The notes under the pieces were generated by a model that worked only from the letters and a program-made list of their open reading frames with translations, was not told the origin of the DNA and did no database searches. From Spirochaeta cellobiosiphila DSM 17781 (GTDB lineage Bacteria; Spirochaetota; Spirochaetia; DSM-17781), in the NCBI RefSeq assembly GCF_000426705.1, contig NZ_KE384557.1, positions 261,758-325,757 on the forward strand: 64,000 bases of DNA. The letters are read 5' to 3'. The position numbers and the translations under genes were made by a program. This document shows positions 4,990-24,639 of this stretch, piece after piece (position 1 is the first letter of the stretch; each line of letters begins with the position of its first letter).

Positions 4990-6174
4990 ATGTTCTATTA
5001 CGTCATAGTTCTCCTTATAGCATTTATATTCTATCTTCTCTTTCCCGGTATTGGAGCGGTTCGAACAAGGAATAGTTGGCGTTTATTTCGACAGGCTTTA
5101 GTAGATTCCAGTTTTTTTCCTATTCTAGATTATGCCTCTTTACGTGGTCTCAATGAAGGGATTTTCCGTTATTTTCGCTTTTTTGGAAGTCTGGAAGCCA
5201 TTCAGGGGGATGATCTGATATGGATAAGGGGCAACAACATTCTTGCTTCTGTTGAGATGAAAGAGGTCAATCTCTTTGTCTTGGAGTTAAAAGAAGAAGA
5301 AGTTCAGGATGGCGATAATCCTTTTGGTGACAAAGAGGCCGGTAAGCTAACCTCTTTGTCTTGGGAACATATTTTTAGTTTGCCTGAAGGCACTAAGTTA
5401 TTTATAGCTGGCCCTCTTTTTAAGGAGCAGGGAAAGGCAATCTTTCGAGGAGAACCAGAGTATAAGTTGACTATGATCATCTATGAAGGAGAAACAGAAC
5501 TGCTTCTACAAAGAGCTATATGGGGAGGGCGTCAAAATAATGAATATTGGAATCGTTTGACCCCAGGTTCGTTAGGAGTAGGTTTTTTTAGCTTACTTGT
5601 ATTGGCTAACTTTTTTCTGTCCCAATCCTATGGTAGACCCTTATCTCTTATTGCATTAACTCTTAGTCTCCTGCCTTTTAGTGTATTACTGCCACCAGGT
5701 CTGTTCTTTTTCTTTTCTTATCTCAACCAATGGAAGCTTGGTCGACGTCTAAGAGCAGAGCGGGATTTACTGCGATTACCCCTAAGATATTTCTTTGAGG
5801 ATCCTAAAGCTGGAGGAGAAGCTCGATTACCTGATGGTAATGTCTATTTTTGCAAATCCATAAAATGGGGTGATACGATGACCTCCGGTCTATCCAAGAG
5901 CATACGTATATGGCCTAGTCTACTGAAGAAGGATGATTTAACAGATAGGGGAGGGTATTGTTTTGGAATACTACCTACCTTCGATGCCAGCTCTACACAA
6001 AAGAGGGATCCCTTTGCTGAAAACATAATCATTCCGGATAATCCCTCAGAATTAGCTCACAAATCTGAAAAAAAAGCCCTGCGTCATGAGATCAAATCTT
6101 TGTTTCTCGTTATTGCAGGACTTCTTATAAATACTTACATTATGCTGGTTGTATTACAGCGCTTGTTATACTAG
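4990..6174 (+). CDS. Hypothetical inner-membrane protein
   Basis: A 394-residue protein of unknown function. It has an N-terminal membrane helix (1-20), a soluble region of about 180 residues, two strong helices in the middle (about 200-222 and 226-248, very Phe/Leu-rich) and a C-terminal helix (about 370-390). The first soluble region may be outside and the second, basic one inside, or the reverse. I see no catalytic motif. The start lacks a strong ribosome-binding site (GAGAGGG lies about 15 nt upstream), so the exact start is uncertain. It converges on the helicase-like gene and overlaps it by 4 nt. Confidence 0.7.
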   Translation: MFYYVIVLLIAFIFYLLFPGIGAVRTRNSWRLFRQALVDSSFFPILDYASLRGLNEGIFRYFRFFGSLEAIQGDDLIWIRGNNILASVEMKEVNLFVLELKEEEVQDGDNPFGDKEAGKLTSLSWEHIFSLPEGTKLFIAGPLFKEQGKAIFRGEPEYKLTMIIYEGETELLLQRAIWGGRQNNEYWNRLTPGSLGVGFFSLLVLANFFLSQSYGRPLSLIALTLSLLPFSVLLPPGLFFFFSYLNQWKLGRRLRAERDLLRLPLRYFFEDPKAGGEARLPDGNVYFCKSIKWGDTMTSGLSKSIRIWPSLLKKDDLTDRGGYCFGILPTFDASSTQKRDPFAENIIIPDNPSELAHKSEKKALRHEIKSLFLVIAGLLINTYIMLVVLQRLLY

Positions 6175-7607
6175 GACTTTTTTTTTGCGTGATTAACAGT
6201 AATTTTACGACCTCTATATTCTGTACCATCGAGTACTTCAATAGCTTTATCAGCCGCCTTTGGATTGATTTCCATAAAGGAATAACTATCGAGAATCTTA
6301 ATATCACCGATTTCTGATTTTTGAATACCAGCTGCGGCGCTAAATAAACCGACAAGATCCCTGGGATAAACTCTTCTATTACGACCAATACTAATAAAGA
6401 GGGTCACTTTGTTATTTGAACGTTTAAGGGATTTACCCATTGTATTCTTAAGTAAATAGGCTCCAACATAGGAACGCATATGGAAAGGGACACTTTTCTT
6501 GAACAACTTTTTATAGAGCTGCATCTCATCAAGGTCTTCATTATCTTTGATTTGATCAATGATTTTTTCAACACTTTCCTTGAATAAGAGAAGCTTCTCC
6601 TGCATCTCATCTTTTGAAATTCCCACGTTAATAATCTCCTTTAAATTGTGGAATTCCGAGGAATCTGTCTCATTAAGAAGAATGTTTATTCTTCCTTGAA
6701 AATCCACACTGCTAAGATGTTGCAGTGCCTTGACTAGTTCCATCGGTGTTTTGGGTTGAGCATAGATATATACATTTTTCACACCTTTAAAGCTTTCATG
6801 ATCGCTCATATGAGCTAATCTGACATTATCCAAAGATTCCATGGGAGCTAAAGAGTCTATCAATTTCCAATCTGTACACAAAAGAAGAACTTTCTCCTTC
6901 GATTGGTATATGAGATCTGGCAGTAATCTACGGCGATTATCCTCATTCAAAAAAGTGATAGTTTTTACCTTACAACCCTTGTTTAGAGATAAAGAAGGAG
7001 TCACTATTTCTGGAGAATCAAAAAAATCTTCTCCCACTATTCCAAACCGTTCTCGAGGTATAACACTTAACCGCTGTCCTACTTGGACAATTTTGTCCAT
7101 GATAAACTCTGCATCCTTTGCAAAACCTGATTTATTATCCTTAAGGACGAATAATACCGTATCCAGGTTAGGCTCATCCCATAATCCTTGTCTCATCATA
7201 TCGATGATTCGATTAGGTGTGCTGACTAAGATAGATGGATTTTGACCGAGGAGTGCTAATTCTTTTTTGACGTCATCCTGGAGACCAATAAACAACATAT
7301 CCGGCCAATCAGGCATCTTACGCCGATATCCGGATACGTCCTTCTTAAAATGTTTTAAAGTCTTCTTACTTTCAAAAATAATGAGTCCCTTCATCCCATT
7401 ATTTTGGACTTCTCCTGCCTTATAGAAAGGGTAAAGACATATACTCTCCCTATCCTCTCTGGCAAAATTGACAAAAATCTTATCCTTAGTGGTATCTAAG
7501 GCTTGTATTATCTTTTTTGTCTGATGAGTTGTTGTTACTCCAAGATTCTTCAAGAAAGAATCAAAATTCGCCTCAATACTATCCCTCAAATCTTTGCTCA
7601 ACAGCAT
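6171..7607 (-). CDS. Helicase-like protein without ATPase motifs, with a DbpA-type RNA-binding domain
   Basis: The last 75 residues (TLFISIGRNRRVYPRDLVGLF ... DILDSYSFMEI-type strand ... RGRKITVNHA) form a DbpA-type RRM, the domain that takes DbpA to 23S rRNA. The preceding 390 residues have the layout of a DEAD-box helicase: a segment like motif Ib (ILVSTPNRIIDMMRQG) and a second RecA-like half with a VLLLCTD strand. I find no Walker A (GxGKT), no DEAD box (the site reads LDTVLFVLKDN) and no HRxGR. It therefore looks like a helicase pseudoenzyme that binds RNA. Its promoter carries a 24-nt palindrome and the mRNA leader would be almost absent, with no ribosome-binding site in front of the ATG. 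Confidence 0.78.
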   Translation of the reverse strand: MLLSKDLRDSIEANFDSFLKNLGVTTTHQTKKIIQALDTTKDKIFVNFAREDRESICLYPFYKAGEVQNNGMKGLIIFESKKTLKHFKKDVSGYRRKMPDWPDMLFIGLQDDVKKELALLGQNPSILVSTPNRIIDMMRQGLWDEPNLDTVLFVLKDNKSGFAKDAEFIMDKIVQVGQRLSVIPRERFGIVGEDFFDSPEIVTPSLSLNKGCKVKTITFLNEDNRRRLLPDLIYQSKEKVLLLCTDWKLIDSLAPMESLDNVRLAHMSDHESFKGVKNVYIYAQPKTPMELVKALQHLSSVDFQGRINILLNETDSSEFHNLKEIINVGISKDEMQEKLLLFKESVEKIIDQIKDNEDLDEMQLYKKLFKKSVPFHMRSYVGAYLLKNTMGKSLKRSNNKVTLFISIGRNRRVYPRDLVGLFSAAAGIQKSEIGDIKILDSYSFMEINPKAADKAIEVLDGTEYRGRKITVNHAKKKS

Positions 7608-7666: not shown

Positions 7667-8869
7667 ATGCCGACAATAAATAATATGAAACATATTTGGA
7701 TACTATTAGCTTTAACAACCTCGATACTATACAGTGAAAACTTTGAGTTTAAATATGAGCCAGGACGTCAATTTAAAATGATCAGTAATGTAGATCAGGA
7801 TGTCTATGTTAATGGAGATCTTAATCATCAAGCTAATATATTGGATAAAATATCCTTTAAAATATTAGAAGCTGAAGATTCTTCCGGTTTTATCAGTGCT
7901 CAATTCAATCTTACAACAAGTCATTATGAACAGGGACAGGTCATTAATAGTCTGGATAGCCAGTATACCAGTGAGTTCTGGCGTGATGCCAGAGGTCATT
8001 ATGATATAGATCCTTCCTATTACATGCCCGTAGCTCGTAATGTTCCTATATTACCGGATCGTGATATACAGATAGGTGATACTTGGACAGCCCTGGGGGA
8101 AGAAGTTCATGACTTAAGAGAAGTATATGGTATTGAAGAACCATATCATCTCCCTTTTGTTGCTACCTATAAATTTGAGGGCTATCGTGATCATGATGGC
8201 CGTTCCTTACCTGTTATTTCTGTGAAATACAGTATAAACCAGCGGACAGGTCTTGAGGGAGATCTTGTTCCTTTATTATTCCAGGTTGAATCAGCACAAG
8301 TTCTATTCTGGGATCCTGATCTCGGCTGGACCACTTATGCCAAAGAATCCTATTACATAAAATTGTATTTATCTACTGGTGATATGTATGAGTTTACAGG
8401 TATTGCGGAAGGCTATATTCTGGAAGTAGAAGAAATGGATCGTGATAAGGTCGCTTCTGACATCAACAAAGACATTCAGGATTCTGGACTAGGAGAAACC
8501 CAAGTTGTTCCTACAGAAAAAGGTGTGTCATTAGTTATGGATGATATTCAGTTCTATCCTGATTCTGATGAATTACTTCCCGGTGAAGAAGATAAACTCC
8601 AGAAAATAGGTAATATTCTTAAGAAATATCCCTCAAGAGATCTTTTGATAGAAGGCTTTACGGCAGATATAGGTTCCAGGGATAGCCAACTTACACTTTC
8701 CGAAAAACGTGCCCAGAAGGTAGGCTCTCTTCTTCTCTCCTGGGGAGTCCGTAATTCTGATCAACTTCTGTTCCGAGGCTGGGGTGGGCAAAAACCTGTT
8801 GCAACAAATGAGACGGAAGAGGGCAGAAAGAAAAATCGACGTGTTGAAATAACTATTCTAGAGAATTAG
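7667..8869 (+). CDS. Outer-membrane-associated protein with C-terminal OmpA domain
   Basis: A 400-residue exported protein. A signal peptide is visible after the second Met at 7685 (MKHIWILLALTTSILYS), so either ATG may be used. The N-terminal 270 residues form a beta-rich domain I do not recognise. The C-terminal 110 residues are an OmpA-type peptidoglycan-binding domain: DIQFYPDSDELLPGEEDKL, LLIEGFTAD, LSEKRAQKVGSLL, and the closing NRRVEI that contains the diaminopimelate-binding Arg. The protein probably links the cell wall to the outer membrane or periplasm. It converges on the hybrid histidine kinase gene, and the two coding regions overlap by 17 nt. Confidence 0.85.
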   Translation: MPTINNMKHIWILLALTTSILYSENFEFKYEPGRQFKMISNVDQDVYVNGDLNHQANILDKISFKILEAEDSSGFISAQFNLTTSHYEQGQVINSLDSQYTSEFWRDARGHYDIDPSYYMPVARNVPILPDRDIQIGDTWTALGEEVHDLREVYGIEEPYHLPFVATYKFEGYRDHDGRSLPVISVKYSINQRTGLEGDLVPLLFQVESAQVLFWDPDLGWTTYAKESYYIKLYLSTGDMYEFTGIAEGYILEVEEMDRDKVASDINKDIQDSGLGETQVVPTEKGVSLVMDDIQFYPDSDELLPGEEDKLQKIGNILKKYPSRDLLIEGFTADIGSRDSQLTLSEKRAQKVGSLLLSWGVRNSDQLLFRGWGGQKPVATNETEEGRKKNRRVEITILEN

Positions 8870-11582
8870 GGAATCGTAATTCGAGAAATAAACGAAGATG
8901 TTCAATCTCTTCATGTAACTTCTTCCACTGCTTTTTATGGGGTAGTTGTCCTTTTTTGAGAAGATGTTCTATTTCTTTGGCTATAGCACTCAAAGGCTGT
9001 GCCATAAGGTTTAATGCTCCTCCTTTGATGGAATGAATCTCCCTATGGGCTGTGACAAGATCATTAGCTTCTATAAGAGAAGGAATTTTATCCAATTGCT
9101 TTTGAGCTGTATAGACGAAAGAAAAGAGCATCTCTTTAACAACTTCACTGTCTCCATCAAATTCTTGAATGAGCTCCTCTAGGGGTAAGGGAGAACTTCC
9201 CTTATCCAAGATCTCCACTTCTTGTCTATTGACTTGGAATTGAGAAGATTTTTCCTTTACTAGATGCATAACCACAGTGGTAATAAGCTTTTCCTTTCTT
9301 AAAGGTTTAGTGATCACGTCATTCATCCCTTGTTTATGGAAACGTTCTATATCTTGAGGATAAGCATCCGCTGTCAATGCTATGACCGGTAGTGAGAGCC
9401 ATAGGGGATTATTACGTATTATCTCCGTCGTCTGTAGTCCGTCCATTACAGGCATATGAATGTCCATAAGAATGAGGTCATATTGAGTTTGTTTCATCAT
9501 ATCTAAAGCTTTCTGACCGTTATCTGCGAAGTCACAGATAAGACCTATTGTTTTTAAATGGAGGTAGACAACCTCTCTATTTGGCTCATAATCTTCTACA
9601 ACAAGGATTTTCCTTCCCTTCACTTGATCTATAAGAGACAATATTTCCACCTCTTGAACCAAATCTTCTGTGGTAGGAGTACCCTTTTCCATACAGATAC
9701 TGAAATGAATGTTAGTTCCTTGTTTGAGTTTACTAGTAAGGGATATATCACCGTTCATGAGTTCGATAAGCTGTTTGGCTAAACTCATCCCTAAACCAGA
9801 TCCACCAAATTGCCTGGTTGTACTGGAATCTGCTTGCACAAAGCTATTAAAAATGTCCTCTTGACGGTCCTCGGGTATACCAATCCCTGTATCGGATAGG
9901 GTAAAACTGAGCCGGTAAACCTCAGCCTTTACCTCCAGGCCTATGGATACAGCTATATGACCTTCATTTGTGAATTTGATGGCATTACCCACAAGATTAT
10001 TAAGAATCTGTTTGATCCTTAAACTATCCCCATTTAGCCATAGCTCTTCATCTAGGGCATCTCGATAGTAGAAATTCAGCCCTTTCTTTCGAGCTCTTTC
10101 CCCAAGGTTCATGGCTAAATAGTTATGTACATCCTTCCATTGGAAGGAGTGGATATCCAAATCCATCATCCCCGCTTCGACCTTACTAATATCCAGTAAT
10201 TCATTGATCATATTTCTAAGGTTTTCTGATTCTTTGATTGTCAGTTCCACATACTTTTTATCTTCACCCAAGGGGACATCATTGAGAAGATGCTCTGAGA
10301 ACCCTATGATTCCGTTAAGGGGCGTCCGCATTTCATGACTCATATTTGCGAGAAATTGTCCCTTAGCTTTATCTGCCTGTTTTAGTTTTGTATTAGCTTC
10401 ATACAATTGAGCTGTTCTTTGTTTTACCTGGTCTTCAATGCTCTTTGAGTACTGTTCCAGATCTTTACGCATCTTTTCTGTATTTGTTGCCAGGGACAAA
10501 AAGATGGTAAAGTCAAAGACGAATAGACCCAAACCTTGTAACCAGAATGGAGGATTAAATTCTCCCACATAGGCTACAATATCATGGGTTGATGCCAGTA
10601 TTCCTATAATGGTTCCTACTAATAAAGGGGCTGTATTGGGTACGCCTTTCTTAAAGGAATTAATGATAAATCCCAGAATAACTATTATAAGAATCTGGGT
10701 TGGGATAAAGACTAAGCTTAATCCTTTTGTTGCCTGCATGTAAGTCATGGGAGTAAAGATATAAACCAGCGCCATTCCCAGAAATAATGTCGATACGATC
10801 CGCTTTATGATAGGACGCTCTTTGATGGGAAGATAAAGTCTAAAAAACATATAGAGAAAATAACTTCCCAGTATAACACCAAGCTTACCTATTTTGTAGT
10901 TAAAGACAAAACCAAAGGGCCCGGCAAATACTGCTAATCTGTGGAAATATATCCCTATCAGTAGATTATAGAGACCAAAGTAAAGCTGCTTTTTATCACT
11001 TCTGTTATAGGCAAATTGAAAAAGGTATATGAAGGCAATCATAAAACTAATAGCTGCTAAATAGACAAAGAAATCACAATTAAAAAAGTCATACAGGTAT
11101 TTCTGACGTCTTGCTGATACTGTTCTTGCTAAACGTACGTTTTTAAAATCAGCTTTCTCAGAGTCTATGTAACCTTGTATCATTAATTCATTGCTTTTTG
11201 TCTCATACAAAAGCTGATTAGGCAGATCTATGATTACACTGGAAGAGAGAGCCAGTATAAAATTAGGAGGAAATTCTCCTGCTGATCCAATCTGAATTCC
11301 ATTTAGGTAATACTTAGCGGCTATATTGGGAGGATCAAAGATAAGGGTTGTGAAGTTATTATCCTCAACCACATCTGTTGAGAACCTGGTTCTTAAGGTA
11401 AAAAAGCCCCCATCAGGACCAACATTCAGCTTTTCCCCAGGGGTGACACTGGACCATATGTCATTGGTTGTATAGGACCAATCATTAAGGTAAAGTCCTT
11501 TTTTTTTCTGAAAAAGTGAGCAGGATTCCAATAATAAAAGTGATATTATTATAAGGCTAAATATTTTAATGATCTTCACCAT
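8853..11582 (-). CDS. Hybrid sensor histidine kinase with 7TM sensor, receiver and HPt domains
   Basis: A 909-residue four-step phosphorelay in one chain. Order: a lipoprotein-type signal (LLLLESC, Cys about 21), a periplasmic jelly-roll-like sensor (about 30-160), seven membrane helices (about 170-375, 7TMR-DISM layout), a coiled coil (SIEDQVKQRTAQLYEANTKLKQ), HisKA with the phospho-His in FLANMSHEMRTP (about 411), HATPase (N box, DTGIGIP, GGSGLGMSLA), a receiver (VVEDYEPN, phospho-Asp in LILMDIHMP near 703, ITKPL) and an HPt domain (IHSIKGGALNL near 850). Phosphate should pass His-Asp-His to an unlinked regulator. Spirochaetes carry many 7TMR-DISM kinases for carbohydrate sensing; the ligand here is unknown. 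Confidence 0.93.
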   Translation of the reverse strand: MVKIIKIFSLIIISLLLLESCSLFQKKKGLYLNDWSYTTNDIWSSVTPGEKLNVGPDGGFFTLRTRFSTDVVEDNNFTTLIFDPPNIAAKYYLNGIQIGSAGEFPPNFILALSSSVIIDLPNQLLYETKSNELMIQGYIDSEKADFKNVRLARTVSARRQKYLYDFFNCDFFVYLAAISFMIAFIYLFQFAYNRSDKKQLYFGLYNLLIGIYFHRLAVFAGPFGFVFNYKIGKLGVILGSYFLYMFFRLYLPIKERPIIKRIVSTLFLGMALVYIFTPMTYMQATKGLSLVFIPTQILIIVILGFIINSFKKGVPNTAPLLVGTIIGILASTHDIVAYVGEFNPPFWLQGLGLFVFDFTIFLSLATNTEKMRKDLEQYSKSIEDQVKQRTAQLYEANTKLKQADKAKGQFLANMSHEMRTPLNGIIGFSEHLLNDVPLGEDKKYVELTIKESENLRNMINELLDISKVEAGMMDLDIHSFQWKDVHNYLAMNLGERARKKGLNFYYRDALDEELWLNGDSLRIKQILNNLVGNAIKFTNEGHIAVSIGLEVKAEVYRLSFTLSDTGIGIPEDRQEDIFNSFVQADSSTTRQFGGSGLGMSLAKQLIELMNGDISLTSKLKQGTNIHFSICMEKGTPTTEDLVQEVEILSLIDQVKGRKILVVEDYEPNREVVYLHLKTIGLICDFADNGQKALDMMKQTQYDLILMDIHMPVMDGLQTTEIIRNNPLWLSLPVIALTADAYPQDIERFHKQGMNDVITKPLRKEKLITTVVMHLVKEKSSQFQVNRQEVEILDKGSSPLPLEELIQEFDGDSEVVKEMLFSFVYTAQKQLDKIPSLIEANDLVTAHREIHSIKGGALNLMAQPLSAIAKEIEHLLKKGQLPHKKQWKKLHEEIEHLRLFLELRFPNSLE

Positions 11583-16919: not shown

Positions 16920-17072
16920 ATGAGACTTTATTCCTACAATTACTTTATTCGCCTCAAGGATGGTCCTGATATTAAAATTTCGACTCAAGTTCAAGTAGGT
17001 CTCCCTCTAGAAATAAAGGATCAAGAAACAGGAGGTAAAGGAGTATTACGATCGTACAATAAAATTAAATGA
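16920..17072 (+). CDS. Possible small protein, 50 aa
   Basis: A small frame starting at the ATG at 16920 (MRLYSYNYFIRLKDGPDIKI...), with AGGA at 16910-16913 as a suitable ribosome-binding site. The N-terminal half alternates as a beta strand pair would and the end is basic. It sits just after another small frame, which suggests a two-cistron unit or pieces of one decayed gene. No family recognised. Confidence 0.3.
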   Translation: MRLYSYNYFIRLKDGPDIKISTQVQVGLPLEIKDQETGGKGVLRSYNKIK

Positions 17073-17229
17073 TTCAGGAATTCTGACTATGCAAGACAAG
17101 AACTGGACAAGCTGATGTAGTTCAAATAAGATATATCACTAATTTGTTAATATTAAAAAATATGGATTAAAGTAAATTAAATTACTATAATACCTCCGAA
17201 TTAAATTATAAAACAAAAAGGATGTTTAA

Positions 17230-17736
17230 ATGAAGAGAATCTTAATTTCTTTATTCTTGGTGTCACTATCTGTGACTGCTTTTACACAAGAAGCAACTAA
17301 TGAAACTTCAGTCCCATTGGAAAAAATCGAAAGACAAGGTTTTGGTTATGTTCAGGGAGATACAAAAATTAAAACTTGGGGGCAGATTAGAGATATCTAC
17401 AAAGCTGATGGTGTAGACACAGCTGTAAAAAAACTTAATGCAAGTCAGTTCAAAATATATTTTTCCTTTGTACCTGCAATTGCTGGAGGATTAATTATCT
17501 CTGTGCCATTACTTCAACTTATAAACAATGAAGATCCCAATCTCCTTTTTGCTGGCGTAGGAATTGGTAGTTTTGCAGGGGCTCTCTTTTTAACTATTAG
17601 CGGTCAACACGACAGAGATGAATCCATCAGAATATATAATGAATATGTTGATAAGAAGAATAGTGAAGTAGCTATAAACTGGGCTCCCATTGTCACTCCC
17701 AACAAAGTAGGATTGTTGGTCTCCTTTAGCTATTAA
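17230..17736 (+). CDS. Hypothetical exported membrane protein
   Basis: A 168-residue protein with an N-terminal signal peptide (MKRILISLFLVSLSVTAFTQ) and two adjacent hydrophobic stretches (IYFSFVPAIAGGLIISVPLL and LLFAGVGIGSFAGALFLTI, about 77-125). The last ten residues (KVGLLVSFSY) end in an aromatic residue, as many outer-membrane proteins do, but the rest is not a beta barrel. A ribosome-binding site AAAGGATG is close to the ATG. It stands alone between gene-poor DNA and the tro operon. Function unknown. Confidence 0.65.
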   Translation: MKRILISLFLVSLSVTAFTQEATNETSVPLEKIERQGFGYVQGDTKIKTWGQIRDIYKADGVDTAVKKLNASQFKIYFSFVPAIAGGLIISVPLLQLINNEDPNLLFAGVGIGSFAGALFLTISGQHDRDESIRIYNEYVDKKNSEVAINWAPIVTPNKVGLLVSFSY

Positions 17737-17956
17737 AAGAAATATTTTTGTGGAGTCAGTTTATTTGGCTCCGCAAGCTGAATAAAGATAAACTAATAAT
17801 TAACTAGTCACATTAATACCTTTTTTATAACACTATACTAAGAAAATAGCATCTCTATATTTGTTGTATAAAGGATATACGATTCCATTGCTATTCACTG
17901 TTTTTGTATGTCAAATAAATCTTCATTCCCATCATCCATTAAAGATATGATAATAC

Positions 17957-18025
17957 TATTTTGAATATTCAAAATAAAATGCTTGATTATTGAATTATTG
18001 TTTATTACTATTTTGAATATTCAAA
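17957..18025 (+). promoter_or_regulatory. Tro operon promoter with twin palindromic metalloregulator operators
   Basis: A perfect 20-bp palindrome TATTTTGAATATTCAAAATA lies at 17957-17976. A second copy with the 14-bp core TTTGAATATTCAAA lies at 18012-18025, exactly 52 bp (about five helical turns) downstream. A 20-base stretch (tactattttgaatattcaaa) is identical in both. Between them TTGATT (17983-17988), a 17-nt spacer and TACTAT (18006-18011) form a likely promoter, so one site lies above the -35 and the other on the start region. A DtxR/MntR-type repressor, TroR, is encoded at the end of the operon and is the obvious ligand. Confidence 0.8.
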
Positions 18026-18042
18026 GTTAACGGGGGGAATTG

Positions 18043-18975
18043 ATGAAAAAATATATATTAATAGCTTTAGTAGTCTTATCTATTATCGCTTGTAATAAAG
18101 AAACCGCTTCAAAAAATAAAGTTTATGGTGAGAGTAATAAAATGGATGTAGTCGCAACCATTGGAATGATAGGGGATGTAGCCCAGAATATAGGTGGTGA
18201 ACGGGTTTCTGTGTATTCTATGATGGGCCCAGGTGTTGATCCCCATTTATATAAAGCAAAAGCTGGTGATGTAGCACGACTAAGTGATGCTGATCTAATA
18301 TTGTATAATGGTATTCATCTGGAAGCTAAAATGGGTGATATTCTGGAAAAGCTTTCACAGACCCAAAATATTACTATGGTTTCCCATGTTATACCCGAGG
18401 ATAGTCTTATAACAGTGGAACAAGCCCATGATCCTCATATCTGGTTTGATGTATCTAACTGGATTGCTGTGGCTGGTGCCATTAAGGACGCTCTTATCAG
18501 TACAGATCCTGCAGGTATAGACGTTTACCAATCACATTACGATACCTATGTGAAAGAGTTACAGGACCTGGATAATTATGTAAAGAAGCAGGCACATACC
18601 ATTCCTCAAGATCAGAGGGTTCTTATAACAGCCCATGATGCGTTTAATTATTTTGGCAGAGCCTACGGATTTGAAGTACGTGGTTTACAGGGAATTAGTA
18701 CTGTAGATGAAGCGGGTACTGGTGATGTGAGAAATCTGGCCGATTTCATAGCTGATAAAAAAATTGGCGCTCTCTTTGTTGAATCTTCCGTGTCTCCTAA
18801 GAGTATAAAAGCCCTTCAGGCTGCTGTCATTAATAGAGGTTGGAATGTGACTATCGGCGGAGAGCTATTCTCAGATGCTATGGGAGATTCTGGAAGTTTT
18901 AAAGGTACTTATATCGGTATGGTCACTCATAACATTGATACCATTGTTTCTGGTTTAAAAGGGGAGGACAAGTGA
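18043..18975 (+). CDS. troA: Zinc/manganese ABC transporter substrate-binding lipoprotein
   Basis: About 310 residues, cluster A-I metal-binding protein. It starts with a lipoprotein signal ([11 protein letters not shown], Cys about 17). Metal ligands are visible in GVDPHLYK (His), DPHIWFD (His), and the C-lobe acidic residues near LFVESSVSP, and the family-typical [18 protein letters not shown] is present. It captures Mn(II) or Zn(II) in the periplasm for TroBCD. I prefer the ATG at 18043 to the TTG just upstream, because the GGGGGGAA ribosome-binding site ends four bases before it. It overlaps troB by 4 nt. Which metal is carried cannot be read from the sequence. Confidence 0.95.
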
Positions 18976-19727
18976 TTACTACAAAGGAAAATGCAATAGT
19001 TGCGGAGGATGTAACTATTGCCTATCAGGATAAACCTGTCGTATGGGATGTTGATCTGAAAGTCCCTCAGGGTATTATGATGGCTATAATTGGTCCTAAT
19101 GGTGCGGGAAAATCCACTTTACTAAAGGGACTTCTCGGACTCATTCCATTAACTGCTGGGAAGGTAAGTGTTTTTGGTGAATCCTATATAAAACAGCGTA
19201 AAAAAGTAGGTTATGTTCCTCAGCGTACAGCAGTAGACTGGGATTTTCCTACAACGGTTATTGATGTTGTTCTTATGGGGACTTATGGAAGGCTAGGTTG
19301 GTTTAAAAAGCCGGGACGTGATGAATACTATCAAGCTACAGAAGCTTTGGAAAAAGTAGGTATGAGGGATTATTCCCATCGTCAAATAAGCCAGCTATCA
19401 GGAGGACAACAACAGCGTGTCTTTTTGGCGAGAGCTTTAACTCAGGAGGCTGAGGTTTATCTGATGGATGAACCTTTTCAAGGTGTGGATGCTGCTACTG
19501 AAAGAGCCATCATTCTTCTCTTAAAAGAGCTAAAAGATCAAGGTAAGACCGTCGTTGCTGTTCATCATGACTTACAAACCGTTCCTGAATATTTTGATTG
19601 GGTTACCTTATTGAATGTGAGGCGAATGGCAGGAGGTCCCGTAGAAGAGGTTTTTACCCAAGATAATCTACGGAGAACTTACGGTGGGCGTTTATCCTTT
19701 TTAGAGGATAATAATATTAGGAACTAA
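18972..19727 (+). CDS. troB: Zinc/manganese ABC transporter ATP-binding protein
   Basis: A 251-residue ABC ATPase. Walker A is GPNGAGKST (about 39-47), the signature LSGGQQQR (about 144), Walker B VYLMDEP, and the switch His occurs in VAVHHDL. It drives the permeases TroC and TroD. The start is a GTG overlapping the troA stop (GTGA) and preceded by GGGGAGGA. One nucleotide separates its stop from troC, which shows a tight operon. Confidence 0.96.
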
Positions 19728-19728
19728 T

Positions 19729-20847
19729 ATGTTGGAGTTACTTCAGGATTTTACTTTACAGACAGTAGCCTCTGGTGCTGCCTTACTTGGTTTATTATCA
19801 GGAGCTTTAGGATCCTTTGCTCTCTTACGTAAACAGAGTTTGCTAGGGGATTCTATCTCCCATGCAGCCCTTCCGGGAATTGTTTTGGCCTTTATTATAA
19901 CCGGGAGTAAAAGCTCCCTTGTTCTCTTGTTAGGAGCGGCTTTTGCTGGCTGGATAGGTACGTGGCTTATCTTATCCATTATTAGAAATACCCGTCTTAC
20001 CAGTGATGGGGCTCAGGGGGTAATCCTTAGTGTCTTTTTTGGGATTGGTTTATTATTACTGACCTATGTTCAGTCTCAACCCAATGCCGCTCAAGCCGGA
20101 TTGGATAAATATCTCTTTGGACAAGCTGCTGCTTTATTACCAGAAGATGTCCTGTCATCAGGTATATTAAGCATTTTATCATTACTGATATTATTTTTCT
20201 TATGGAAAGAGATCAAACTCATGACTTTTGATCCTGTATATGGGGAAAGTCTTGGGTTTTCTTCGAAAGTCACTGATTTTGTTATCACCGGATTAATCGT
20301 GATTGCCATTGTAACGGGCTTGCAAACTGTGGGAGTTATCCTAATGAGCTCCATGTTAATTGCACCTGCTGCTGCGGCTAGACAATGGACCGATCGATTG
20401 GGAGTTATGGTTATTCTCTCGAGTCTATTTGGAAGTGTAGCTGGTGTAGCAGGAGCGATCCTATCCAGTATTATTCCTAACCTTCCTACAGGTCCAACAA
20501 TTGTATTGTGTTTGACTTTTCTCGTATGTGTTTCTCTGTTTCTGGCCCCGAATCGGGGGATTCTATCGCAGATGATTAAGCGTTTTAATAACCGTTATGC
20601 TTTTTCCTTACAGAAGCTTCTTATGGAATTGTATTATCTGGAAAAAGATCATGATGAAGTTCCTGCTGGTCATGATAAGAAAACCATATCTCTGATCCGT
20701 GAACGAAAAGGAAGCATCACTGTTGCTTTAAACACTTTGCTCTCACGGGGGCTGGTGGAAAGAACCAGAGATGGCCTGTGGCGTCTAACCGATAGAGGTC
20801 GTAAGGAGGCTGTAAGTCTCAATGGAGGAGCTTCCCATGATATTTGA
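19729..20847 (+). CDS. troC: Metal ABC transporter permease with C-terminal winged-helix-like domain
   Basis: A 372-residue ABC-3 family permease with about eight membrane helices in residues 1-280 (LLGDSISHAALPGIVLAF, then TVGVILMSSMLIAPAAAARQW). About 90 further residues follow the last helix and read like a winged helix (SLQKLLMELYYLEKD... ITVALNTLLSRGLVERTRDGLWRLTDRGRKEA). Simple ABC-3 permeases have about 280-300 residues. The tail resembles the DNA-binding part of DtxR-type regulators such as TroR. It may act as a cytosolic regulatory or ATPase-coupling domain; this is inference. Confidence 0.9.
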   Translation: MLELLQDFTLQTVASGAALLGLLSGALGSFALLRKQSLLGDSISHAALPGIVLAFIITGSKSSLVLLLGAAFAGWIGTWLILSIIRNTRLTSDGAQGVILSVFFGIGLLLLTYVQSQPNAAQAGLDKYLFGQAAALLPEDVLSSGILSILSLLILFFLWKEIKLMTFDPVYGESLGFSSKVTDFVITGLIVIAIVTGLQTVGVILMSSMLIAPAAAARQWTDRLGVMVILSSLFGSVAGVAGAILSSIIPNLPTGPTIVLCLTFLVCVSLFLAPNRGILSQMIKRFNNRYAFSLQKLLMELYYLEKDHDEVPAGHDKKTISLIRERKGSITVALNTLLSRGLVERTRDGLWRLTDRGRKEAVSLNGGASHDI

Positions 20848-21934
20848 AATCCTTTTTGTTGCTGTACTTGTATCCATGGCATGTGCCATCCCAGGTGTTT
20901 TTCTTGTGCTTCGTAAGATGTCTCTAATGAGTGATGCCATTAGTCATGCTGTACTTCCAGGGATTGTTTTAGGATTTTTATTGACCCATTCCCTCTCATC
21001 TCCCTTACTTTTTATAGGAGCTGTTTTCACAGGGATTTTGACTGTCTTCCTGTCAGAATTATTAGTGAAAACCTCATTGGTCAAGGAAGATGCGGCTATT
21101 GGACTAGTATTTCCAGTCTTATTCAGTATCGGTGTTATATTGGTGAGTCTTTTTACAGGAGATGTACATTTAGATACGGATGCAGTGCTTCTTGGTGAGT
21201 TAGTATTCACCCCTTTAGATCGTATAAGTGTAATGGGCTGGGACTTAGGCCCTAGAATGGCCTGGATTATGGGCCTTATTCTATTAATTAATTTGTCTAT
21301 ACTCTTTTTATTATTTAAAGAGCTCAAATTAGCTACTTTTGATAAGGGATTAGCTACATCCTTGGGCTTTTCTCCTGTTCTTATTCAGTATATTCTTATG
21401 ACAGATGTTAGCATCACTACAGTAGGTGCTTTTGATGCGGTGGGTTCGATTCTGGTTGTAGCCTTGATTGTTGCTCCTGCTTCTGCAGCCTATTTATTGA
21501 CTGATGATCTTAAGATGATGGTTCTTCTCTCCATAATTATTGGGGTTCTGTCTTCTATTAGTGGATTTTATGTTGCCTGGTTTATGGATGCTTCTGCTTC
21601 TGGAGCTATTGCCGGGATGTGTGGAGTGTTCTTTTTACTAGCTTTCCTATTTGCTCCTTCCAGAGGTATTGTCGTTCAATATCAGCGAAAAAGAGGGCAG
21701 AAGCTGGATTTTGCAATGACATTGTTAACGGTTCATATTATGCATCACCAAGGTAAAACAGAAGAAATCAACGAGTGTAGTGTCAACCATTTGACCCAGC
21801 ATATTAATTGGGATTCGGTCTTCGCCAAATCTGTAGTAACTCAGGCTCAAAGGAAAGGCCTTATCAATATCGTTAAAGGGATCATTACCTTAACAAGTGA
21901 AGGGAGAGAAAGAGCTGACCAGGCTATGATATAA
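20837..21934 (+). CDS. troD: Second metal ABC transporter permease with C-terminal winged-helix-like domain
   Basis: About 365 residues, ABC-3 permease and partner of TroC. Membrane segments fill residues 1-285 (MSDAISHAVLPGIVLGFLL, AVGSILVVALIVAPASAAYLL). A cytosolic tail of about 80 residues (TLLTVHIMHHQ... VVTQAQRKGLINIVKGIITLTSEGRERADQ) again has the helix-turn-helix plus wing pattern. I start it at the ATG at 20837, six bases after GGAGGAG; an ATG at 20822 is in frame but has no such site. The start overlaps the end of troC by 11 nt. Confidence 0.9.
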   Translation: MIFEILFVAVLVSMACAIPGVFLVLRKMSLMSDAISHAVLPGIVLGFLLTHSLSSPLLFIGAVFTGILTVFLSELLVKTSLVKEDAAIGLVFPVLFSIGVILVSLFTGDVHLDTDAVLLGELVFTPLDRISVMGWDLGPRMAWIMGLILLINLSILFLLFKELKLATFDKGLATSLGFSPVLIQYILMTDVSITTVGAFDAVGSILVVALIVAPASAAYLLTDDLKMMVLLSIIIGVLSSISGFYVAWFMDASASGAIAGMCGVFFLLAFLFAPSRGIVVQYQRKRGQKLDFAMTLLTVHIMHHQGKTEEINECSVNHLTQHINWDSVFAKSVVTQAQRKGLINIVKGIITLTSEGRERADQAMI

Positions 21935-21940
21935 CGCTTA

Positions 21941-22378
21941 ATGGAAAAATTAACAGAAACAGTCGAAGACTATATTAAGACAGTATGGACCTTATCAGAA
22001 TATGGTTCTAAGAATGATCTCATTCCTTTGGGGGATTTGGCTAGACAGCTTAAACTGGCACCGGGAACAGTTACGGTCATGATCAAACGTTTTACTCAGG
22101 ATGGGTGGTTTGAGTATGAAGCCAGAAAGGGTTGTCGATTGACTCCACAAGGTGTTTGCAAGGCTATCTCTATTCTGCGAAAGCATCGTCTTCTAGAGTA
22201 TTTTCTCGTCGAAACTCTGGGTATGAACTGGGATGAAGTTCATCAAGAAGCAGAAAATCTTGAACATAGTCTGTCTGATAAGGTTGTTGAAAAGTTAGAT
22301 GAATTTTTAGAATTCCCTTCCCATGATCCCCATGGGAAGAGAATTTGCCGTTCTGAAGAAGAACTGGAGACTTCTTAA
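21941..22378 (+). CDS. troR: DtxR/MntR-family metal-dependent repressor
   Basis: A 145-residue regulator of the short type without an SH3 domain. The N-terminal winged helix is clear (VEDYIKTVWTLSEYG, LGDLARQLKLAPGTVTVMIKRFTQDGW). The dimerisation and metal-binding half contains RKHRLLEYFLVETLGMNWDEVHQEAENLEHSLSD with the expected His, Glu and Asp ligands, and HDPHGKRI. It should repress the tro operon when Mn or Zn is bound, through the twin palindromes before troA. Its stop overlaps that of metE on the other strand, so the two genes meet without spacer. Confidence 0.93.
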   Translation: MEKLTETVEDYIKTVWTLSEYGSKNDLIPLGDLARQLKLAPGTVTVMIKRFTQDGWFEYEARKGCRLTPQGVCKAISILRKHRLLEYFLVETLGMNWDEVHQEAENLEHSLSDKVVEKLDEFLEFPSHDPHGKRICRSEEELETS

Positions 22379-24639
22379 TCCCCTGACGATCGTATTCTTT
22401 TTGTGGCTCTCACCATATTGGTAAGGGCTGATCTGACTTCTTCCCAAGCTCTTGTTTTTAGTCCACAGTCGGGATTAACCCACATTTGATCGACTGGCAG
22501 AACTTTTAGTCTTTCTCTGATTTGATCTTCAAATTCCTGTACTGAAGGTACTCTGGGAGAATGAATATCATAGACTCCTGGGCCTATTTCCTTTTTGTAC
22601 TGACTATCCCTAAAAACTTTAAGAAGCCTATTGCCGCTACGAGCTGTTTCAATAGTAATAACATCTGCGTCCATGGCTTCAATTGTCTCGATGATATCAT
22701 TGAAAGCACTGTAACACATATGGGTATGGATCTGAGTTTCTTTATGAGCTGTAGACACGGTGAGCTTGAAACCTTTAACTGCCCAATCTTCATAGGATTT
22801 GATGTTTTTCTTACGAAGGGGATAACCTTCTTTGAAAGCCGCTTCATCTACTTGTATGATTTTGATTCCAGCTTCCTGGAGATCTCTGACTTCATCGCTC
22901 AGGGCTAAAGCTATTTGCTGGGATATTAACTCCCGTGAAAGGTCATTACGAACAAAGGACCAGTTAATAATGGTTACAGGACCGGTTAACATTCCTTTCA
23001 TAATTCGCTTTGTTAAGCTCTGGGCATAGCTTATCCATTCCACTGTCATAGCTTTAGGACGACTAATGTCCCCATATATGATGGGAGGCTTAACACAACG
23101 GCTTCCATAGCTTTGAACCCAGCCATTTGAAGTAAAATGAAATCCTTCCAGTAGTTCTCCAAAGTATTCAACCATATCATTTCGTTCCGGTTCCCCATGA
23201 ACGAGTACATCTAAATCAATTTCTTCCTGGAATTCAACACATTCCTTTATGTATTGCTTGAGAGAAGATTCATAAACTTCTTTGGTGATGAGTTTCTTTT
23301 TATAATCTCTACGAATCTTTCTCAATTCTTTCGTTTGTGGGAAGCTTCCTATCGTTGTAGTGGGAAGTGAGGGTAAGTTGAATTGCTGTCTTTGAAGTTG
23401 AATTCGCTCATGGAAGTTACCTTCTCGGTCCCGATTTCCCTCTTTACTAACTCTTTGTTGCACCTTGTCATTATGAATGAGAGAAGATACAAGTTTATTT
23501 TTGTGGATATTACGATTCTCTTCGAGGGCCGCTTTCGTTTCGGATGTATTATCATTCTCCAGGATAGCTTTCAGTAGAACTAATTCTTTCAGTTTTTCTA
23601 CTCCGAAGGCGAGCCACTGTTTGATAGGAGCCTCCTGGGGTTCATTACGTAAGGAATAGGGAACATGCAGGAGGGAACAGGATGTGGATAGCAATAACTT
23701 GTTGTGAGGCACTTGTTCTCTAATACTCTCTATTAGTTTTAGGGCTTCATCATAATGGGATATCCAAATATTACGACCATCAATGATCCCGGCAACTAAA
23801 ACCTTATCTCCTATGGAACTAAGGCTTTGCAGATTATCTTTTCCATGAATAAAGTCCAGACCAATTCCCCAAATCGGAGTTTGGCTTAATAAAGGAACAG
23901 CTTCACTAGCTTGTTCAAAATAGGTCATGACTATGATTTTTATTTTGGTACTGACAGAAGCTAATGTGTTGTAAGTCTGAATTATAAGATCTAGAAGCTT
24001 TGGGGCGGGATCTTTGACCAAAATGGGCTCATCAATTTGGAGAATAATGGAATCATCTAGTTCAGATATCTCCTGGATTACTTTCACATAGGTCTCCAGG
24101 ATTGACTCGTAGTAATCAAAGGGATCACTTGTGTCTAAACTTTTGGATAATCCTGTGTAGGTAATAGGTCCGATGAGGTTTATCTTGCTTTGAATACCAA
24201 GTTCCTTGGCCTCTCTATACTCTGTACGAATTTTATTTATATTAGCTTGAAAGGGCGTTCGTTTATCTAATTCGGGTACAATGTAATGATAATTTGTATT
24301 GAACCACTTGGTCATTTCCATCGCGGTTGAGGAGGCATTGCCTCTAGCCATAGAAAAATAGATATCTTCGTATTGACTGAGATCACGGAATCTTTCCGGT
24401 ATGGCATTGATCATGATTGAAGTATCAAGCATGGTATCATAGTAACTAAAGTCATTAGAGCTAATATAGTCGATTTTTTGACCTGATTGTTCAGTCCAGT
24501 GTTTGGCTCTAAGTTTTTTACTTAACTCTTCAAGTTCAGGGAAGCTTATCTTTCCTGACCAGTATTGTTCTAGAGCTTTCTTTAATTCCCGGTGTTCTCC
24601 TATGCGTGAGAACCCTGTTAGATAGGTTTGTGTAGACAT
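22375..24639 (-). CDS. metE: Cobalamin-independent methionine synthase
   Basis: A 754-residue two-barrel enzyme that methylates homocysteine with methyltetrahydrofolate triglutamate, in the cytosol. The C-terminal barrel carries the zinc site: HMCYSAFNDI (His, Cys), the Glu of the ITIETARSG strand and NPDCGLKTRAW (Cys). VHGEPERNDMVEYFGE and LPTTTIGSFPQT are also diagnostic. The gene lies directly behind a cobalamin riboswitch, so it should be made only when vitamin B12 is scarce. This implies that a B12-dependent methionine synthase (MetH) exists elsewhere in the genome. Its substrate homocysteine comes from the sulfhydrylase at 12.6 kb. Confidence 0.97.
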   Translation of the reverse strand: MSTQTYLTGFSRIGEHRELKKALEQYWSGKISFPELEELSKKLRAKHWTEQSGQKIDYISSNDFSYYDTMLDTSIMINAIPERFRDLSQYEDIYFSMARGNASSTAMEMTKWFNTNYHYIVPELDKRTPFQANINKIRTEYREAKELGIQSKINLIGPITYTGLSKSLDTSDPFDYYESILETYVKVIQEISELDDSIILQIDEPILVKDPAPKLLDLIIQTYNTLASVSTKIKIIVMTYFEQASEAVPLLSQTPIWGIGLDFIHGKDNLQSLSSIGDKVLVAGIIDGRNIWISHYDEALKLIESIREQVPHNKLLLSTSCSLLHVPYSLRNEPQEAPIKQWLAFGVEKLKELVLLKAILENDNTSETKAALEENRNIHKNKLVSSLIHNDKVQQRVSKEGNRDREGNFHERIQLQRQQFNLPSLPTTTIGSFPQTKELRKIRRDYKKKLITKEVYESSLKQYIKECVEFQEEIDLDVLVHGEPERNDMVEYFGELLEGFHFTSNGWVQSYGSRCVKPPIIYGDISRPKAMTVEWISYAQSLTKRIMKGMLTGPVTIINWSFVRNDLSRELISQQIALALSDEVRDLQEAGIKIIQVDEAAFKEGYPLRKKNIKSYEDWAVKGFKLTVSTAHKETQIHTHMCYSAFNDIIETIEAMDADVITIETARSGNRLLKVFRDSQYKKEIGPGVYDIHSPRVPSVQEFEDQIRERLKVLPVDQMWVNPDCGLKTRAWEEVRSALTNMVRATKRIRSSGD

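Follow-up and report, generated by a model that had tools for sequence, protein, structure and literature searches.

Paired predicted TroR operators 52 bp apart at the tro promoter of Spirochaeta cellobiosiphila

How would a metal-responsive promoter make use of two separate operators for the same repressor, when one seems to suffice at most promoters of its kind? This question is raised by the tro promoter of Spirochaeta cellobiosiphila DSM 17781, which lies in the 64,000-nucleotide stretch of contig NZ_KE384557.1 that we analyzed as a whole (the window, whose numbering is used throughout). An initial annotation of this DNA had described two palindromes on one helical face with the promoter between them, and had proposed that they support cooperative or looping repression by the regulator TroR.

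The palindromes themselves are real and placed as described. The upstream one (operator 1, 17957..17976, without strand) is a perfect 20-bp palindrome, TATTTTGAATATTCAAAATA, and the downstream one (operator 2, 18009..18028, also without strand, TATTTTGAATATTCAAAGTT) is perfectly symmetrical over its inner 14 bp only (18012-18025). Both share a run of 20 identical nucleotides, TACTATTTTGAATATTCAAA, found at 17954-17973 and 18006-18025, and this run belongs to a 28-nt direct repeat on the forward strand, of which copy 1 (17951..17978) contains operator 1 and copy 2 (18003..18030, 89% identical to copy 1) contains operator 2; no resemblance between the copies was seen beyond these 28 nt. The copies start exactly 52 bp apart, which leaves a 32-bp spacer between the operators and amounts to 4.95 turns at 10.5 bp per turn, so that the two sites lie on nearly the same helical face, as had been claimed. 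When the 306-bp intergenic stretch was shuffled with its dinucleotides preserved, an exact 20-mer repeat arose in 0 of 20,000 shuffles and a palindrome of at least 20 bp in 54 of 20,000. Moreover, the exact 14-bp core is present in the whole 3.95-Mb genome at operators 1 and 2 only, against an expectation of 0.08.

Downstream of the palindromes, five co-directional genes on the forward strand overlap or are separated by short gaps. On the basis of open reading frames and domain matches, these are troA (18043..18975), encoding a metal-binding lipoprotein of the ZnuA/TroA family, troB (18972..19727), encoding an ABC ATPase, troC (19729..20847) and troD (20822..21934), encoding ABC-3 permeases, the former with a C-terminal extension, and troR (21941..22378), which encodes a DtxR/MntR-family metalloregulator of 145 aa. 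The troABCD transporter genes followed by troR give the gene order of a TroR-regulated tro operon. The 3' end of troR overlaps a convergent gene, named metE by eye, by 4 bp. No Rfam family, and hence no riboswitch in the leader, was found over 17000-22500. As a separate observation, the extension of TroC (372 aa; 20563-20844) gave weak winged-helix-like Pfam matches (MarR-type, E 0.01-0.04; Mrr_N, 4e-5) and is found as well in the nearest relative, L038, with a TroC frame of 393 aa, while Treponema TroC is reported to be about 300 aa long; for the tail of TroD (21650-21931), the matches were all weak and of different types.

The palindromes can be predicted to be the TroR boxes of this operon. 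The tro operators that Brett et al. describe from their reporter work for Treponema denticola, AATTTTGATATATCAAAATA, and Treponema pallidum, CTTTGATGCATCAAAATT, have the frame TTTGANNNNTCAAA in common, and TroR is described as repressing less well when the T. denticola operator is mutated (Brett et al., 2008; PMC2628430). Both operators in the window fit this frame, giving two intact copies upstream of troA. We searched 394 genomes of the class Spirochaetia and took the 44 in which TroA was matched with an E value no higher than 1e-60, scanning up to 450 bp before the match (less for L152, L163 and L173). The frame was intact in 37 of these 44 tro promoters and present with at most one mismatch in 41, compared with 0.09% and 2.8% of shuffled controls, and the promoters presumed to be those of T. 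denticola (L143) and T. pallidum (L153) yielded, as a positive control, the published operators. In addition, the recognition helix of TroR, APGTVTVMIKR in S. cellobiosiphila and TPGTVTTMIKR in near relatives, is almost unchanged. Because the Treponema operators fit the frame, the box is conserved in 41 of 44 genomes and the recognition helix is near-identical, the identification of both sites as TroR operators, which had been made in the initial annotation, appears well founded as a prediction from comparative sequence data.

The same survey indicates which of the two operators is likely to be the older. Upstream of troA there is a -35-like hexamer, TTGATT (17983..17988), followed after 17 bp by a -10-like hexamer, TACTAT (18006..18011), both on the forward strand and each matching at 4 of 6 positions, and the layout corresponds to that in the three nearest relatives; the Shine-Dalgarno-like sequence of troA is GGGGGG (18032..18037, forward strand). 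With 8 of 12 hexamer matches this promoter is weak, and our promoter scanner did not call it. The description of a promoter lying between the two sites holds for the -35-like element, but TACTAT runs 3 bp into the downstream palindrome, so that operator 2 covers part of the -10-like element and the presumed start site of a sigma-70-type promoter whose hexamers are themselves weak. In the three nearest relatives (L137, L139 and L138, with TroA identities of 73, 72 and 67%), a single intact box likewise abuts or overlaps the -10 element of a TTGACR-N17/18-TAnnnN promoter. Because the sole box of these relatives adjoins the -10 element in the same manner, operator 2 is, as judged from this comparison, the ancestral, conserved operator. 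The arrangement in S. cellobiosiphila thus resembles that described for T. denticola and T. pallidum in the troABCDR order, the TTTGANNNNTCAAA operator between the -10 element and troA and the DtxR-family TroR, and differs in having two intact operators where one is described there. In the open-access literature, judged by titles and opening lines of abstracts, TroR was the main subject of one paper and no report of two separated TroR operators was found; the original study of T. pallidum, like the bulk of the subscription literature, falls outside this set.

Operator 1, in turn, is by the same kind of evidence an addition specific to this lineage, because no other tro promoter among the 44 has a second intact box. 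A single intact box was found in 36 of the 43 others, in line with the single-site control that the initial annotation gave for other tro operons, and an intact pair of boxes 24-54 bp apart, the range covered by our genome-wide pair search (closer pairs fall outside it), occurs anywhere in the genome in this one alone among 394. Imperfect boxes paired at 22 bp were seen at two loci, L148 with one mismatch in each and L152 with weaker sites. It could be argued that operator 1 has no function and is either a chance palindrome or a duplication that is recent and neutral, being present in one genome of 44 and in an order that, among the genomes compared, this one alone represents. We regard this as very improbable: symmetry should be the first thing to go in a decaying copy, but operator 1 is the more perfect palindrome of the two and has the higher class-matrix score (21.8, compared with 20.0 for operator 2), and the exact 20-mer repeat never arose in the shuffles. 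As operator 1 slightly outscores operator 2, it is not evident that it plays the lesser part.

Upstream of operator 1 the scanner did report one promoter-like site, its only one, TTCCCA-N17-GATAAT (17926..17954, forward strand), which ends 2 bp ahead of operator 1 and whose start would fall within it. This raises the possibility that the 28-bp repeat copied a unit of -10 element and operator, placing a TTCCCA-N17-GATAAT promoter under operator 1 and the downstream promoter under operator 2 as tandem modules. In keeping with such a duplication, the repeat reaches 6 bp 5' of the palindrome, where the copies agree at 5 of 6 positions, TACTAT occurs in both copies and the position of the scanner's site echoes the -10/operator layout of the relatives. 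We nevertheless consider this reading unlikely, since the scanner found one site where 3.4 would be expected by chance, the upstream TACTAT copy is without a good -35 element and the likeness of the copies stops at 28 nt.

Weak second TroR-like sites at exactly +22 or -22 bp from the box, in some families also at +44, were noticed in many spirochaete tro promoters (among them L137, L138, L139, L142, L143, L146, L148 and L152), and across 16 family groups assigned by hand the +22 offset was the strongest of all (z 4.4). The +22 sites are a lead to possible additional TroR sites, but many overlap the Shine-Dalgarno sequence and the start codon of troA (GAGTTT...ATGAAAAA), so the +22 signal may be a translation signal.

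Further copies of the palindrome, from which the initial annotation had envisaged defining a regulon, were sought throughout the genome. The core is intact nowhere else, and four copies with one mismatch bring the total at up to one mismatch to six places, compared with 5 for a reversed control pattern. Two of the four (L004 and L007) lie inside genes, one (L005) at the first codon of a gene in a cluster and one (L006) in an intergenic region where no metal-transport neighbor was recognized by eye. As these copies are at the control level and none precedes a recognized metal gene, we propose no TroR regulon wider than tro. A relaxed 18-bp frame with 0-1 mismatch matched 12 places outside the tro promoter: eight were inspected (L121, L123, L124 and L126-L130), of which L121 and L129 were checked against open reading frames and both lie inside genes; L125 is the same place as L005, C27:264057 is within the window itself, and C27:96586 and C29:22617 were left out. 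With two mismatches there were at least 110 places compared with 51 for the control, among the matches listed. The genome encodes four other DtxR-family proteins, and these could bind the operators as well. Elsewhere in the genome, at L133 on contig C26, DtxR-family proteins at 8496-9578 and 5466-6323 flank frames for an FeoB-like GTPase and a transporter, and one of the two has, in domains assigned by eye, a likely membrane segment at its start and FeoA-like repeats at its end.

Taken together with what is known of the family, we think it probable that the tro promoter is controlled by metal-dependent promoter occlusion at operator 2, with an independently bound operator 1 deepening the repression. 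Through the two TroR boxes, metal-loaded TroR would regulate its own operon, troABCDR, and at high cellular Mn, and probably also Fe, a TroR dimer would occupy operator 2, cover the 3' edge of the -10 element together with the start site and thereby exclude RNA polymerase, which would be the ancestral mode. Operator 1, located just upstream of the -35 element (about -61 to -42 if transcription starts near 18018), would be an extra full-strength site gained in this lineage; a second dimer would most likely bind it independently of the first and would add repression by blocking an upstream polymerase contact, the weak second promoter that ends before the site, or both. We infer independent action from the spacing of the operators and from the behavior of the family, in which known cooperative pairs are adjacent, and from the TroR protein, which is without a C-terminal domain. 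This kind of switch is well known, and the second full-strength copy of the operator is its unusual part. For Bacillus subtilis MntR, for example, single high-affinity sites that overlap uptake promoters are described as acting by promoter occlusion, with one site each at mntA and mntH (PMC11275975). The locus is similar to those controlled by the MntR proteins of B. subtilis (mntA, mntH, mneP) and Escherichia coli (mntS, mntP) in having a short dimeric regulator and a site over an uptake promoter, and paired sites also occur there; unlike B. subtilis, however, S. cellobiosiphila has two sites at an uptake promoter, where one is described for the uptake genes of the former.

Could the two dimers nevertheless cooperate, as had been proposed? 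Two TroR dimers on the same face might reach each other over the 32-bp spacer, trapping RNA polymerase or keeping it out, and besides the 4.95-turn spacing, precedents exist in which dimers of this family do cooperate. In Streptococcus mutans, SloR binds adjacent 18-bp sites (SREs) with 4-bp gaps at sloABC and mntH cooperatively, through contacts attributed to its C-terminal domain (PMC12096823), and B. subtilis MntR dimers cooperate at mneP, which is activated via multiple adjacent weak sites (PMC11275975). Like SloR, S. cellobiosiphila TroR is a predicted metal-dependent repressor of the DtxR family, and the Mn-uptake promoter likewise has more than a single palindrome, but the SloR sites are spaced at about 22 bp and bound by a protein with a C-terminal domain, whereas here the distance is 52 bp and the domain is missing. 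Only 5 of 12 positions match 22 bp upstream or downstream of operator 2, and no middle box of any strength lies between the operators, the third-best upstream site in the class matrix scoring 3.7 and being located elsewhere. In addition, this TroR has Leu in place of the MntR contact residue Tyr22, although most relatives are without Tyr22 too, and for the paired, well-separated MntR sites at E. coli mntP a different mechanism is suggested (PMC11275975). Looping does not follow from same-face spacing alone. We know of no tetramerizing DtxR-family protein. Cooperative or looping repression by TroR, which finds no support in this spacing and this protein, therefore seems improbable to us, and we favor independent binding at operator 1.

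The TroR protein itself has the N-terminal winged helix and the metal-binding and dimerization domain of the family (PF01325 and PF02742, both above the gathering score). All five residues equivalent to the MntR ligands D8, H77, E99, E102 and H103 are present, and the four at H77, E99, E102 and H103 are invariant in this protein and the 28 relatives in our alignment (28 of the 41 with a TroR match, namely those with a retrieved locus that was included). The position of MntR E11 is Lys here, in all 28 relatives and in ScaR. At the D8 position this TroR has Asp, unlike the Asn of the Treponema proteins, and several other families of the class have Gln; on these residues, metal preference may differ across the class.

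With 145 aa, TroR has no C-terminal SH3-like domain, which nearly all its relatives have retained but which is not universal in the family, being absent from T. pallidum TroR and from MntR. A TroR match was present in 42 of the 44 genomes, and truly short frames are limited to the window (147 codons) and the T. pallidum-like G076 (156); the frame of G335 (147) is truncated where its contig stops, and the remaining ones have at least 224 codons. The long TroRs of the nearest relatives suggest that the short protein here arose separately from the T. pallidum one. A frameshifted SH3 domain past troR was considered and rejected: C-terminal queries from five relatives gave no stand-out match downstream (best E 0.2), three of them recovering each other at E 3e-12 or better and L184 and L186 being weak probes that failed to recover relatives. 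One in-frame match inside the N-terminal half of troR (E 6e-4, 33% over 45 aa) was judged to be due to chance.

The coincidence of a short TroR and a doubled operator in one genome leads us to a further, rather doubtful but possible idea, namely that the second operator compensates for loss of the SH3-like domain and that repressor and promoter co-evolved, a repression-strengthening domain having been traded for a second full-strength site at a non-adjacent spacing. In the work of Brett et al., C-terminal deletions of T. denticola TroR brought repression of the T. denticola promoter down from 96% to 64, 58 and 43% but left that of the T. pallidum promoter nearly unchanged (90, 92 and 85%); the T. 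pallidum operator overlaps the promoter, and the TroR of T. pallidum is itself short (153 aa). These authors suggest that tro promoter and TroR length may have been matched in each treponeme (Brett et al., 2008; PMC2628430). The locus described here fits compensation as a single case; of the two truly short TroRs, the one in the window is paired with two boxes and that of G076 with one. Apart from this question, the doubled operator is a minor regulatory variation. Together with the short TroR, it makes the trade-off between repressor domain and operator number testable, and after the treponemes this genome would offer a third natural case for the matching of TroR length and promoter.
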